Source of the DNA: Colwellia sp. PAMC 21821
Lineage (GTDB): Bacteria; Pseudomonadota; Gammaproteobacteria; Enterobacterales; Alteromonadaceae
Direction: 5' to 3'
DNA: 64,000 nucleotides
Assembly: GCF_002077175.1 (NCBI RefSeq)
Contig: NZ_CP014943.1
Coordinates: forward strand, 3,720,001 to 3,784,000
Below the pieces are notes generated by a model that was given only the letters and a program-made list of their open reading frames with translations, did not search any database and had not been told where the DNA came from. The position numbers and the translations under genes were made by a program. Position 1 is the stretch's first letter. Each line of letters starts with the position of its first letter. Shown piece after piece: positions 5,411 through 53,769 of the stretch.

Positions 5411-6465
5411 GCACCTTTATCGCGTTACTACGTCAACATCATCAAGCCCTTGAAACTCAGTATAGCCGTCAACTATCACATGATATGCGCCAAGCGATTT
5501 TTGCCATGCTGTCATGTAAAACGGGGCAACAAGGTCAATCATTATGGGCATGCTCAGCTTGTGAGCATCATGAGAGCCAAGCGCTTTCTTGTGGTCATAG
5601 AAACTGCCCACAATGTCAGCAAAGCACAACGTCAACGTGGCTTGAAAGACAAAAACAAAAACGCTTACCTGTGCAATATTACATGACAACCTTTACCTTG
5701 CCCTATGAGTTAAGAGCGTTAGCTCGCAAGCGACCTAAAGCCCTATATCAAATAATGTTTAGTGTCAGCGCGTCAATCTTAAAAGATTTTGCACGACGTA
5801 ATAAGTTAGGGACAATAGGGTTTACGAGTGTTTTACATACCCACAGCAGAAGACGTGAGCTGCATCCTCATATACATATCATAGTGCCCAATGGCGGTTA
5901 TGATGCAAAACGTAAGCAGTGGAAGCAAGGCAAGCCGGGTTATTTGTTTAATGCGAAGGCACTCGCTAAGGTATGGCGAGCTCGCATATTTGAGGCAATT
6001 AACCAACATCCTGAGTTATCGCTGAAAGACATTAACATCATGCCAAAGCAATGGGTCGTTCATTGTAAAAAGGTGGGCTATGGTCTGCCTGCGTTAAAAT
6101 ACCTTTCAAGATACCTTTATCGTGGTGTATTAGCGGACAAAGATATTATCAGCCATGACCATAAAAACGTCACCTTTCGTTATACAAATAGCACCACTAA
6201 AAAAACTGAAACACGTACGCTACCCACCTTAACGTTTCTGATGCTGATATTACAGCATGCATTACCTAAAGGGTTACAGCGTGTTCGAGACTATGGTCTC
6301 TTATCCTCGGGCGCTAGGAAAATACGATTATTGATACAGTTTTTATTAACCGAGTTTACTCACCTTTTACCGCCAAGCATCACACCATCCAAACCCAAAG
6401 CAAAACGGGCTTGTCCGTGCTGTCAGCATCAGATGCTATGTACTGGCGTCATTAGGGCTGGCTAA
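5407..6465 (+). CDS. IS91-family transposase (HUH/Y1 rolling-circle)
   Basis: 352 residues from ATG 5407, which overlaps the upstream stop as ATGA. The N-terminal zinc-binding domain has CSACEHHESQALSCGHRNCPQCQ (about residues 45-70). The HUH endonuclease motif is LHPHIHIIVPNGG (about residue 150), and the catalytic Tyr is likely in YLSRYLYRGVL (about 230). The C-terminus has CPCCQHQML. Length and domain order fit a full-length IS91-type transposase, which nicks at oriIS and moves by rolling circle. The frame is intact, so the element could be active. The start codon 12 nt upstream (5395) is less likely because of the ATGA overlap. Confidence 0.9.
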   Translation: MSTFIALLRQHHQALETQYSRQLSHDMRQAIFAMLSCKTGQQGQSLWACSACEHHESQALSCGHRNCPQCQQSTTSTWLERQKQKRLPVQYYMTTFTLPYELRALARKRPKALYQIMFSVSASILKDFARRNKLGTIGFTSVLHTHSRRRELHPHIHIIVPNGGYDAKRKQWKQGKPGYLFNAKALAKVWRARIFEAINQHPELSLKDINIMPKQWVVHCKKVGYGLPALKYLSRYLYRGVLADKDIISHDHKNVTFRYTNSTTKKTETRTLPTLTFLMLILQHALPKGLQRVRDYGLLSSGARKIRLLIQFLLTEFTHLLPPSITPSKPKAKRACPCCQHQMLCTGVIRAG

Positions 6466-39070: not shown

Positions 39071-39316
39071 CCGTTCCTAGCCATCTCGGTAATTGCTCCT
39101 GCATTACTCTAATGACTTACATCCATGTAAGAACATGGCTTCACGGCATTAGTGCATCCATGCACGTCGCCGTTCCTAGCCATCTCGGTAATTGCTCCTG
39201 CATTACTCTGATGACTTACATCCATGTAAGAACATGGCTTCACGGCATTAGTGCATCTCGGTAATTGCTCCATGCATTACTCTAATGACTTACTTCCCTG
39301 TAAGAACATGCACGTC
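39071..39316. repeat. 99-bp tandem intergenic repeat, two copies plus a partial third
   Basis: Units start with CCGTTCCTAGCCATCTCGGT at 39071 and 39170; a partial unit starts at CATCTCGGTAATTGCTCCAT (39254). Each contains an internal inverted word, CTTACATCCATGTAAG. The first two copies differ at very few positions; the third is more diverged. Non-coding; it occupies most of the gap between fadD and yciK. Confidence 0.9.
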
Positions 39317-50001: not shown

Positions 50002-51009
50002 TTATAGACGCTCTAATACCGCTTGTGTGAAGTCTGAAGTACCATGTGTACCACCTAAATCACGTGTCGTGCGATCGCCTGATTCGATAACTTCAGTGAT
50101 AGCGCGACGAATATTATCGGCTTTATCTGCCATGCCTAAATATTCTAGCATTTGTATAGCGGCTAAAATAACTGACGTTGGGTTTGCCAAGTTTTTACCT
50201 GCAATGTCGGGTGCACTACCATGAACAGCTTCAAATATTGCACAGCCATTACCAATGTTAGCGCCAGGTGCCATTCCTAGACCACCAACTAAACCAGCAC
50301 ATAGATCTGATAATATATCGCCAAATAGGTTAGTAGTAACAATGACATCGAACTGCTCTGGGTTCATTACTAATTGCATACAACAGTTATCTACGATCAT
50401 TTCTGTTGATTCAATTTGTGGATAACGTGCAGCGACTTCACGGGCCACTTTAAGAAATAGACCTGATGTTGATTTTAGGATGTTAGCTTTATGAACAGCA
50501 GTAACTTTCTTACGACCTTCTTTTATAGCGGTTTCGTAAGCAAAAGTAACAATGCGTTCCGCACCTTCGCGGGTTACAAGGCTCATTGCTTCTGCATGAT
50601 TGCCATCTTCTGAAACGGTTTGGCCAAGACCTGAGTACATACCTTCTGTATTTTCACGAATGGTAATGATATCAATGTTTTCGTAACGGGCTTTTGTGCC
50701 TTTAAATGACAATACAGGACGAACATTTGCATACAGTTGAAAGTGCTTACGTAATGTCACGTTAATTGAAGTAAAACCATCACCTACTGGCGTTGTTAAT
50801 GGGCCTTTAAGCGCTATTTTATTTTTTTCAATCAGCGCTAAGGTAGACTCTGGTACTAAATCGCCATGATTCTCTAATGCTGTTAAGCCAGCGTCAGCAT
50901 ACTCATATTCAAAATTACAGCCCGCTTTATCAAGTACTTGGATCGTTGCATCTATAATATCTGGACCAATACCGTCACCTGGTATCACTGTTATGATTTG
51001 TTTTGCCAT
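50002..51009 (-). CDS. NAD-type isocitrate dehydrogenase (beta-decarboxylating dehydrogenase)
   Basis: 335 residues. ITVIPGDGIGPDIIDATIQVL at the start, substrate Arg residues in SINVTLRKHFQLYANVRPV, ENTEGMYSG, catalytic Tyr and Lys (AVHKANILKSTSGLF), and the metal/cofactor segment NLFGDILSDLCAGLVGGLGMAPGANIG followed by EAVHGSAPDIAG. S-x-N near residue 83 (TSINVTLRK) favours isocitrate over isopropylmalate or tartrate. The short form resembles the NAD-dependent enzyme, distinct from E. coli-type NADP Icd. Feeds the citric-acid cycle. An IS66 element sits 185 bp upstream of its start, within or close to its promoter region. Confidence 0.9.
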   Translation of the reverse strand: MAKQIITVIPGDGIGPDIIDATIQVLDKAGCNFEYEYADAGLTALENHGDLVPESTLALIEKNKIALKGPLTTPVGDGFTSINVTLRKHFQLYANVRPVLSFKGTKARYENIDIITIRENTEGMYSGLGQTVSEDGNHAEAMSLVTREGAERIVTFAYETAIKEGRKKVTAVHKANILKSTSGLFLKVAREVAARYPQIESTEMIVDNCCMQLVMNPEQFDVIVTTNLFGDILSDLCAGLVGGLGMAPGANIGNGCAIFEAVHGSAPDIAGKNLANPTSVILAAIQMLEYLGMADKADNIRRAITEVIESGDRTTRDLGGTHGTSDFTQAVLERL

Positions 51010-51277
51010 TGTTACATTACCTTTTGAGTATTACTTTTTTAGTGATGAGAATCGAGTGTAGTAGTACATATAAGACTACTGCCAACGGGTATAATTGATA
51101 TGGCAGTTTTTATATCGACTCAACTGTGTTAATGCCTGTAATTATAGCAACTAATCGAAACAGTTAGTAAGTATTAACATTAAACTTTAGTCTTATTTAT
51201 GGTGAGCGTCGGCTAATGAACACCTTGAATTTAAATCGTACTCAGGTTTGCATTATATTTATATTCTTCTAGTATTG

Positions 51278-51406
51278 TTGGTGTTGGCAACAACACCAAG
51301 CAGGATGCTGGGTTATGGATACTTCAGGATGAAGTGCGGTGGCATGGAGCCACTACAAGGACGAATAAAACAGGGAGTGTTGATCATGGATGATTTCCTC
51401 TGTTTT
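51278..51406 (+). ncRNA. CsrB/RsmY-like GGA-hairpin RNA inside the IS66 element
   Basis: On the + strand: stem 1 TTGGTGTTG-GCAA-CAACACCAA (51278-51299); stem 2 AGC-AGGAT-GCT (51299-51309); stem 3 ACTTC-AGGAT-GAAGT (51321-51335); stem 4 GTGGC-ATGGA-GCCAC (51339-51353); single-stranded AAGGAC (51357-51362); and a terminator-like stem AAAACAG-GGA .. TCC-T-CTG-TTTT (51367-51406) whose loop contains ATC-ATGGAT-GAT. Seven GGA words occur in 88 nt, three of them in the loops of perfect short stems. CsrA/RsmA binds exactly such loops (A-n-GGA), and ACTTCAGGATGAAGT occurs, from memory, in E. coli CsrB. The AT-rich upstream has TTTGCA-N17-TAGTAT as a weak promoter candidate. No protein is credible here. 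Transcription and binding are inference. Confidence 0.7.
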
Positions 51407-51422
51407 CCCCCACAAACTTTCT

Positions 51423-52937
51423 CTACACTTTATTAAGTTTTACGTTCCAAGGTAATAATGCGTTAATGTCGAGTGTTGAGTTGGTTAATTGCTCAAGGCA
51501 ATGCATGAGATAATCAAACGGGACTAAATCATTCGCTTTTGCTGTTTCTATCATCGAGTAAAGCATCGCACTGGTGTTTGCGCCATTCGCGGTGTTTGAG
51601 AATAACCAGTTTTTTCGACCAATCACAAACGGTTTCACGGCACGCTCTGCACGGTTATTGTCGATACTTAGCTCACCATTTTCAATATAACGACTGAGTT
51701 TATGGCGTTGATTTTTACAGTATTGAATAGCCTTACCTAAGGCTGTTTTGGGTGGCACGTTGGCTTTTTCTAACCATTGATAAAACTGTACGAGTATAGG
51801 CTTAGCTTTTTCCTGGCGCTGTTGATACTTTTCCTGCGCCGTTTTATCTTTTATTTGTGTTTCTAATCGATACAGCTTTTGAATATGGCTCAGCGCCATA
51901 TTCGCCTTACCTGTTTTTCCTTTTGGTTGTGCGATGTCTGCTTCTTTAAATTTTCGACGCGCGTGTGCCCAACACCCCGCGAGGGTTGCTTGCGTTTTTT
52001 CATAACCCGCATAGCCATCCACTTGCAAATAGCCCGTATATCCATTGAGATAATCAACCGGACATTGCCCCGCACGACTAGATTGATAATCAAAAAGCAC
52101 AATATTAGGCACATCACTGTGCACAGGCGTATCACTGCCCGTGCAGTAGAGCCACATATAGCACTTAGCTTTATCTTCATTAATCACGTTAAGCGTGGTT
52201 TCATCCGCTTGAATAACATATTGCTGTAAGAGCGTTTTCTTTAACTGTTCATAAAGCGGCTTAAATAGTTCGCTGCATTTCATCATCCACTCGCTCATCG
52301 TCTGCCGGCTTAATGCAATACCGTATTGCTTAAACAAGCTTTCTTGGCGATAAAGCGGCAATGCATATTGATATTTACTGGTGATGATTTGACTTAACAA
52401 TGACGGCGTTGCAAACCCTTTAGGTATTGGGCTGAGAGGGACACGTGCACTTTTAACGTGCGTGCTAACACCTTCTTTTTCACATGTTCGACAACTGTAT
52501 TTGAGTCGTACATGCTCAATCACTTTAACTTTTGCCGGAATAAACTCAAGCTTCTCACTGCGCGATTCACCCATAGGATGCAATGACTCACCACAGCAGT
52601 CACAGGTCTTTTCTGTGTCGCTTAAATCATGAATTATAATTTCACGCTCAAGCGTTTTAGGGAGCTTTTGTCTCACCGGTTTTTTCTTAACAACTGCAGG
52701 GGTTGACTCAACCGTTGCTAAAACCTCATCAAGGACGACTTCGACTTCATTAAACAAATCACCTTGTGCAGGATGACCTTCACTTCGCACACCAAAGCGT
52801 TGCTGTTGAGCAAGGCGGAACTGCTCCTCCAGAAACTGCAATCTCGCGGCCTGGTTAGCTGATTGCTTACGCTCAGCCAACAGCATCGCTTTGAGCTGTT
52901 CAATGTTATTGGGTAAGGATTGCGCGTCATCATTCAT
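51423..52937 (-). CDS. tnpC: IS66-family transposase TnpC
   Basis: 504 residues. N-terminal coiled coil (about 5-50), zinc-binding CDCCGESLHPMG and CRTCEKEGV (about 110-160), then the DDE domain: Asp in VIQADETTLNV, Asp in YLQVDGYAGYEKT, Glu in IDNNRAERAVKPFVIGRKNWLFSN, given in pieces. C-terminal HMxxLL-like tail ending LNALLPWNVKLNKV. Full length for the family, so probably active. Downstream, on the opposite strand, lies the GGA-hairpin RNA; its terminal stem is bidirectional and could also terminate tnpC. Confidence 0.95.
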   Translation of the reverse strand: MNDDAQSLPNNIEQLKAMLLAERKQSANQAARLQFLEEQFRLAQQQRFGVRSEGHPAQGDLFNEVEVVLDEVLATVESTPAVVKKKPVRQKLPKTLEREIIIHDLSDTEKTCDCCGESLHPMGESRSEKLEFIPAKVKVIEHVRLKYSCRTCEKEGVSTHVKSARVPLSPIPKGFATPSLLSQIITSKYQYALPLYRQESLFKQYGIALSRQTMSEWMMKCSELFKPLYEQLKKTLLQQYVIQADETTLNVINEDKAKCYMWLYCTGSDTPVHSDVPNIVLFDYQSSRAGQCPVDYLNGYTGYLQVDGYAGYEKTQATLAGCWAHARRKFKEADIAQPKGKTGKANMALSHIQKLYRLETQIKDKTAQEKYQQRQEKAKPILVQFYQWLEKANVPPKTALGKAIQYCKNQRHKLSRYIENGELSIDNNRAERAVKPFVIGRKNWLFSNTANGANTSAMLYSMIETAKANDLVPFDYLMHCLEQLTNSTLDINALLPWNVKLNKV

Positions 52938-53023
52938 GGACTTATTTTATCAATAAATCACACTAACTTGTTGGCTTTATTAAGATTATTTCGTGATCAA
53001 TAAATGCTGCTTATGATCACATG

Positions 53024-53374
53024 TTATAAGGCAACCGTGTCATAACGAATAGCTTGATGTCCCAGCACATCAAAGCCGTTAAACAGCCAATGCAATTGCT
53101 GCTCAGATAAATCAAGTGATGTTGAAGTAAGTTTATTGGGCCATTTAAACTTGTCTTTTTCAAGCCGTTTATACCACAAAGCAAAACCGGTTTTATCCCA
53201 ATACAACACCTTAAGTTTATCTCGCCCTTTATTGCAAAACACAAAGACGCTGCCGGTTAGCGGTGATACTTGCATTTGTTGTTCAACAATCATGACTAAG
53301 CCATTGATAGATTTTCTAAAATCAACGACGTTACGATAAAGATAGACCTCTGGCACATCAACAAACATTTTCAT
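53024..53374 (-). CDS. tnpB: IS66 accessory protein TnpB (Orf2)
   Basis: 116 residues. The hallmark wording of IS66 Orf2 is present: VYLYRNVVDFRKSINGLVMIVEQQM, GSVFVFCNKGRDKLKVLYWDKTGFALWYKRLEKDKF, split here by a few residues, and WLFNGFDVLGHQAIRYD. Needed with TnpC for IS66 movement; its biochemical role is not settled. Its start overlaps the stop of the upstream 103-codon gene by 4 nt, and tnpC follows 86 bp downstream. Confidence 0.95.
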   Translation of the reverse strand: MKMFVDVPEVYLYRNVVDFRKSINGLVMIVEQQMQVSPLTGSVFVFCNKGRDKLKVLYWDKTGFALWYKRLEKDKFKWPNKLTSTSLDLSEQQLHWLFNGFDVLGHQAIRYDTVAL

Positions 53375-53682
53375 TGGGATAACCCGCTAAGTAACTTATC
53401 CATAATGGCCTGTGATGTACTACAAAGTAGCGGTAAATCAGCAAGTGGCATGATGAGTTTTATGTTTTGCATGAGCTGATTTATCAGCTGTATCGTGTGA
53501 AGGGAAATAATGTGGCCTTGGATGACGCTGCCTTCATCACGTTGTGTGAGGTCCATTTCGCTGTGCGTACAAAGGGATGCCTGATGTAAGTAAGTCAAGC
53601 GATTACATGGCGGTTTAGCTAAACCAAAGGTGTTTGTTTTATCAACGGGGTACTGGCAATCATTAAATACTTTGTGTGTCAT
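53371..53682 (-). CDS. first gene of the IS66 element, unrecognised (in the place of tnpA)
   Basis: 103 residues, preceded by GGAGTAACTT on the minus strand. It occupies the place of tnpA and overlaps tnpB by 4 nt. The usual IS66 TnpA is a basic helix-turn-helix protein; here I see no such motif. It contains Cys and Pro-rich words (CQYPVDKTNTFGLAKPPCNR, LPLLCSTSQAIMDKLLSGL) and a helical middle (LHTIQLINQLMQNIKLI). It may be a different accessory protein of a marine IS66 subgroup. The frame is intact. Confidence 0.65.
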   Translation of the reverse strand: MTHKVFNDCQYPVDKTNTFGLAKPPCNRLTYLHQASLCTHSEMDLTQRDEGSVIQGHIISLHTIQLINQLMQNIKLIMPLADLPLLCSTSQAIMDKLLSGLSQ

Positions 53683-53769
53683 AAGTTACTCCAAAATTAA
53701 ATTGAAACAACTGTAAGGTGAAAAGCGACTAAATATAATGTGCTATTGGGCAGACGCTCACTATTTATG

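Follow-up and report, generated by a model that had tools for sequence, protein, structure and literature searches.

The window, by which we mean the whole 64-kb stretch of DNA analysed, contains an intact IS66-family insertion sequence (IS) with the following parts.

51194-51201, no strand: left target duplication TATTTATG
51202-53761, no strand: IS66-family insertion sequence, 2560 bp, one of five identical copies
51202-51225, + strand: left terminal inverted repeat, GTGAGCGTCGGCTAAT...
51423-52937, - strand: tnpC, IS66 transposase (PF03050)
53024-53374, - strand: tnpB (PF05717)
53371-53682, - strand: tnpA, named by position (no Pfam match)
53738-53761, - strand: right terminal inverted repeat, the minus strand reading GTGAGCGTCTGCCCAAT...
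53762-53769, no strand: right target duplication TATTTATG

An earlier sequence-only reading had taken the element to be intact, and this is borne out by its ends and by the TATTTATG duplication on either side. TnpC carries the DDE_Tnp_IS66 domain and is accompanied by TnpB, while terminal inverted repeats and an 8-bp target duplication are found in all five identical full-length copies of the host genome (G000; single contig, 4.88 Mb). These duplications are perfect and mutually different, and the five matches to the IS66 transposase domain in this genome coincide with the positions of the five IS copies. The nearest named TnpC relative is that of Candidatus Colwellia aromaticivorans (85%), and searches of plasmid and phage collections returned nothing close to the IS. 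From the left IS end to the tnpC stop the window element measures 221 nt; in other IS66 loci with a readable end, the distance from the TnpC match to the end is 18-77 nt in 23 of 28 and 18-43 nt in 20. About 190 bp separate the IS from the start of an isocitrate/isopropylmalate dehydrogenase gene (PF00180, window 50002-51009). This gene points away from the IS, which lies upstream of it, and the insertion may touch its promoter region.

Between the left IS end and the tnpC stop, the + strand holds a putative RNA gene of about 130 nt (51277-51406), convergent with tnpC.

51247-51275, + strand: promoter-like block TTTGCA-N17-TAGTAT
51277-51406, + strand: candidate Csr/Rsm-type small RNA (Rfam match range; models R1 and R2 match 51269-51408)
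51278-51299, + strand: stem-loop 1, perfect 9 bp, TTGGTGTTG-GCAA-CAACACCAA, the inner 4 bp conserved in the family
51299-51309, + strand: stem-loop 2 core, AGC-AGGAT-GCT, with AGGAT in the loop
51321-51335, + strand: stem-loop 3, ACTTC-AGGAT-GAAGT, with AGGAT in the loop
51338-51354, + strand: stem-loop 4, GGTGGC-ATGGA-GCCACT, with ATGGA in the loop
51357-51362, + strand: single-stranded AAGGAC
51367-51406, + strand: terminator-like stem AAAACAG/CTGTTTT around a ATCATGGATGAT hairpin, with TGGA in the loop

The RNA is kept in all five host copies of the IS, and the target duplications rule out a host gene lying beside the element rather than inside it. The parts of the region are as they had been described from the letters, including seven GGA words in 88 nt, counted from first to last base (starts at 51303, 51317, 51327, 51346, 51359, 51374 and 51388); the 9-bp stem and the minimal second stem share one base, the last of the former and the first of the latter. 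Seven GGA words were reached by 59 of 2000 dinucleotide shuffles of the RNA, six GGA in possible hairpin loops (stems of at least 4 bp) by none of 2000, and three GGA in loops with stems of at least 5 bp by 22 of 2000. When 130-nt windows were scanned over both strands of the 64 kb, those over the RNA ranked first, and two minus-strand windows near 39101-39111 matched them for the strong-stem count but not otherwise. Taken by itself, folding energy supports the RNA weakly, with a z of -2.06 for 51270-51410 (8 of 200 shuffles equally good) and a better value for the minus strand (z -3.17). The TTTGCA of the promoter-like block is exact in 14 of 19 family members and has one mismatch in four more. 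Both this block and the terminator-like stem are conserved, the latter with no clear U-tract outside the stem, and a simple terminator scan returned nothing.

A 62-residue open reading frame (51248-51436) overlaps the RNA; it has early stops in L007 and L057 and a shift in L131, although in L125, which is a remnant of this type of IS, it stays open nearly to its end. The frame is broken in three of the four relatives translated, so that the region is not a degraded coding sequence, and this refuting condition named by the sequence-only reading did not arise.

Homologues point firmly to a real, structured RNA. In alignment A7 (22 rows; fitted to the model, as are A9 and A10), 94.2% of cells are paired, 22 of 27 pairs have changed on both sides and the covariation score was reached by none of 500 shuffles. 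The expected compensatory changes in relatives are thus present, with GGA staying in the loops. RNAalifold, which is blind to the structure, recovered from the MAFFT alignment A8 (19 rows) 15 pairs corresponding to stem-loops 1-3, 11 of them with double changes; stem-loop 4 and the terminator stem were not recovered from this alignment. In the IS-resident rows alone 92.8% of cells are paired and 11 of 27 pairs show changes in both partners (reached by 2 of 500 shuffles), with a number of pair types not above shuffles (395 of 500). The GGA site of stem-loop 4 occurs in 9 of the 11 IS-resident rows and each of the other six sites in all 11; the loss of the stem-loop 4 site in G758 was seen by eye. 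In the other 19 rows, which include L168, cut by another mobile element, the seven sites are kept in 18, 17, 16, 9, 16, 19 and 18 rows, allowing a few columns' slack. In L168 (2841-2978, genome G754) the first stem-loop seems, by eye, to be cut by the end of an IS3-like element.

These comparisons bear on the proposal that the stretch has a DNA-level role at the IS end, or is a chance degraded stretch. Such a role would fit the observation that the RNA adjoins an IS end in every IS context seen. It is set against an excess of G-U over A-C cells (49 and 5), which argues for selection on the RNA of the + strand, against the loss of the reading frame noted above, and against the occurrence of solo family members at chromosomal sites with no IS. 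The covariation and the solo genes together largely refute this proposal, which we regard as extremely improbable.

The solo gene of the host genome is 89% identical to the IS copy from the promoter block through the end of the terminator-like stem. The similarity stops at the end of the RNA gene, and the 5-kb surroundings of the solo copy contain no IS66 gene. A genome of the same genus (G182) has a solo RNA in similar surroundings. The IS copy is a paralogue of this short chromosomal RNA gene. Members of the RNA family were found across four related genera. At E up to 1e-7, model R1 (derived from six sequences) finds matches in 22 of the 395 genomes searched in the taxonomic family; in six of these (G013, G048, G061, G095, G109 and G124; 44-53 bits) the match is, by eye, the 5' part of longer CsrB-type RNAs, and the short RNA by eye resembles the start of CsrB. 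Model R2 gave two matches among 394 genomes of the order, both inside the family. The RNA is present in 5 of 17 genomes of the host's own genus, in 13 of 39 of the genus of G363 (weak matches counted) and in the one genome of the genus of G041. Two diverged copies of the short RNA occur in each of G754 (L169:3134-3276 and 5493-5635) and G281 (L132 and L133) with no IS66 gene noticed adjoining them, which suggests that the chromosomal family itself duplicates.

A search of Rfam, proposed earlier as a check, aligned the RNA over the full PrrB_RsmZ model (RF00166) at 26.4 bits (E 0.0023), and so tentatively places it with PrrB/RsmZ; the score is under the cut-off of 44, and the RNA is therefore not filed as RsmZ itself. 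We do not rely on this match, because RF00166 at E up to 10 has matches in 12 of 14 control genomes and four other IS-borne loci (L125, L126, L057 and L128) have no Rfam match at E up to 0.1. Searched over the whole host genome, RF00166 did not return the IS copies. Solo copy L130 matches RF00018 at 22.2 bits, below the gathering score.

The host has one CsrA gene, whose product agrees at 52 of 57 aligned residues with the solved chain 1y00_A (labelled carbon storage regulator), which we take to be E. coli CsrA. Several GGA held in hairpin loops across the family, a conserved RNA structure and a CsrA in the host, as expected of a sponge RNA, are all found here. A GacA box upstream of sponge RNAs is common, not universal. 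Just beyond the window the host has a long CsrB-like RNA (L072:1681-2008; G000 contig 3789180-3789507), which scores 24.6 bits to RF00018 (cut-off 71) and has a GacA box one mismatch from the consensus, with 1 of 200 shuffles as good; for the IS copy the best upstream candidate has four mismatches and 161 of 200 shuffles are as good, while none of the nine solo copies has a box better than shuffles (consensus as given in PMC8523701). Control of the short RNAs by GacA is unsupported on these grounds.

The interpretation of the region as a CsrA sponge, first made from the letters, draws support from the IS copies, the compensatory stems, the host CsrA and the non-coding frame, and we consider it probable that the cargo of the IS66 element is a functional sponge RNA gene of the Csr/Rsm type. 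The IS-borne RNA would be transcribed, would bind host CsrA at as many as seven GGA sites, would lower free CsrA, and every new IS insertion would add one more sponge gene. Since the IS copy, unlike the host CsrB-like RNA, has no GacA box, its output should follow IS copy number and not the BarA/GacA switch. On this best reading the host would gain an additional CsrA sponge that is independent of GacA and increases in dose as IS copies accumulate.

The RNA also occurs in IS66 elements of other genomes. G041, from another genus, has eight copies of a 2542-bp IS66 element in which the RNA has the position and strand seen in G000, and these eight are all the IS66 transposase loci of that genome. 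Target duplications are perfect in six of the eight and the copies differ from the first by 0-5 bases; relative to G000, TnpC is 63% identical and the IS DNA 65.7% over 2137 aligned columns. In a third genus, G363 has an intact 2610-bp element with a perfect 8-bp duplication and a TnpC 43% identical, in which the RNA lies between the tnpC stop and the IS end on the tnpC strand, the opposite orientation to G000; two of the three IS66 transposase loci in G363 are without the RNA. G758 shares the layout of G363 in an element that a contig end truncates; the two TnpC sequences are 78% identical over 229 residues. At two places in G754 the RNA sits upstream of a broken IS66-type transposase in divergent orientation; another copy, the third, has only the neighbouring stretch beside it. 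No target duplications were seen for these degenerate elements. Remnants comprise a left IS end, the RNA and a tnpC tail in G198, an IS-like end with the RNA in G386, and the RNA with an IS end in G378.

There are thus at least three layouts of the RNA in IS66-family elements, a diversity suggesting that uptake was repeated and that the RNA is of some use to element or host. In a tree of TnpC (33 rows, after omission of 10 short or broken loci among the 40) the three proteins from RNA-bearing elements stand apart, that of G363 on a long branch. Three changes are required by the branches with good support, and one gain plus two losses could account for them. The RNA tree does not place the IS-resident rows in one clade (AU p 0.031 for all seven IS rows and 0.0306 for the five of convergent layout), with 10 of 16 inner branches weak and the tested groups named after the tree was seen. 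This tree, with its weak inner branches, tends to disfavour a single origin for all IS-resident RNAs; three layouts are what the data establish. Within the convergent layout, the IS end is 44-45 nt from the promoter block in G000, G041, G198 and G386 (the last three counted by hand), a spacing that favours one origin of that layout. The cargo seems to have been taken up by IS66 elements more than once.

Two pairs of IS-resident copies show the RNA better conserved than the IS DNA around it. In one pair, the elements of G000 and G198, the promoter and RNA are 93.1% identical (160 columns), compared with 75.0% and 82.1% for the flanks; between G363 and G758 the values are 87.1% for the RNA, 74.1% for tnpC and 64.6% for the end flank. 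No second RNA copy was found in G198 or G363 at E up to 1e-7, allowing for the fact that several of the carrier genomes are drafts, and this weighs against repair from a solo gene. The conservation speaks against neutral cargo, that is, against an IS that took up a host small RNA gene beside its end by chance, the RNA perhaps being transcribed and bound by CsrA with no gain for the IS, and being kept only since the event is recent. Recency would suit the 89% identity that the IS copy still shares with the solo gene, and chance uptake would suit the rarity of the RNA among IS66 relatives: besides the two G363 loci, none of 40 IS66 loci from named genomes (chosen by TnpC similarity; 28 hold the tnpC end plus 250 nt) has an R2 match at E up to 0.1, and R1 gives two matches at about 15 bits. 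The test for drift between IS and solo copies in G000 is likewise not significant, as all 11 substitutions miss the GGA words with a probability of 0.14, so that this pair alone shows nothing. Against neutrality, besides the two pairs above, stand the pairing and GGA maintained in the IS-resident rows and the several layouts, and we judge it unlikely. The RNA may matter to the host or to the element. We offer tentatively, as possible though short of probable, the fuller reading that transposons of the IS66 family recruited a CsrA-sponge RNA from their hosts on repeated occasions and have kept it under selection to shift the host Csr switch, with more sponge per copy and outside GacA control.

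The RNA might instead regulate or terminate the element itself, as an antisense to the transposase mRNA, by acting in trans on the transposase start or as an insulator at the tnpC end. Its convergence with tnpC in G000 and G041 means that tnpC read-through would be complementary to it, and IS-coded small RNAs controlling their own transposase are known. In ISPpu9 of Pseudomonas putida a small RNA gene likewise lies downstream of the transposase, with orphan copies elsewhere; it differs in that its RNA, Ssr9, is reported to pair with Asr9 and to tune the transposase, and the words Rsm and passenger are absent from the text (PMC8450116). Of nine tests for a duplex between the RNA and a transposase start, eight were ordinary (z -0.87 to 0.98) and one, at the tnpC start of G041, fell below shuffles (z -2.18), and so pairing of the ISPpu9 kind with the start of the transposase mRNA was not found in those eight. 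The further suggestion that the RNA frees its own transposase mRNA from CsrA is unsupported, as each of nine gene-start stretches holds only 0-2 GGA words, and neither the duplex tests nor the GGA counts support control of the transposase through pairing or through leader CsrA sites. The RNA moreover lies on the tnpC strand in G363 and G758 and divergently upstream in G754, its conserved GGA loops and compensatory stems are not needed for antisense pairing, and solo genes exist without an IS. Action on the element itself is accordingly very unlikely in our estimation.

Insertion sequences are usually thought to carry just what moving requires. The predicted sponge resembles PrrB/RsmZ (RF00166) and CsrB/RsmB (RF00018) of clan CL00106, likewise short RNAs with repeated GGA hairpins, and differs from them in scoring below both gathering scores, in the GacA box not being found and in being transposon-borne. 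Aln1a-c of Alteromonas macleodii, from the same broad group of marine bacteria, are short CsrB/RsmX-Z analogues whose expression was reported to be the highest of any genes in that data set; unlike the present RNA they are three chromosomal genes in one 404-bp region with no IS, and they are likened to it by description and not by sequence (PMC5864184). The 5'tnpA RNA of IS200 in Salmonella is likewise an IS-derived RNA acting on host regulons, and its authors name CsrA as worth testing because of three GGA; it differs in being part of the transposase mRNA, with Hfq binding and PinT pairing shown (PMC12594629). RsmQ of plasmid pQBR103 is likewise a case of a mobile element reaching into the host Csr/Rsm system; it differs in that RsmQ is a protein of the CsrA type and its carrier a conjugative plasmid, in contrast to an IS with a sponge RNA (PMC9928087). 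The sequence-only reading knew of no IS with such a passenger, and searches of open-licence papers yielded no description of an IS-borne CsrA sponge. Csr/Rsm sponge RNAs, IS-borne small RNAs and plasmid-borne Rsm proteins are already known; the present case would add a Csr-type RNA in a new, mobile setting.

If the fuller reading is correct, simple insertion sequences would manipulate a global regulator, and a transposon whose cargo titrates this post-transcriptional regulator would alter carbon use, motility and biofilm merely by copying itself, with IS load tied to physiology via gene dose. The several layouts make it a testable question whether the cargo is useful to the IS, to the host or to neither.

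Two minor observations concern other loci of the survey. The first bases of L129 (G382 contig 121) look like a Nextera sequencing adapter. In G178, two weak R1 matches about 9 kb apart (L043 and L053; 25.2 and 23.6 bits) have GGA hairpins, lie close to apparent tRNA genes and are maybe another Csr-type RNA.
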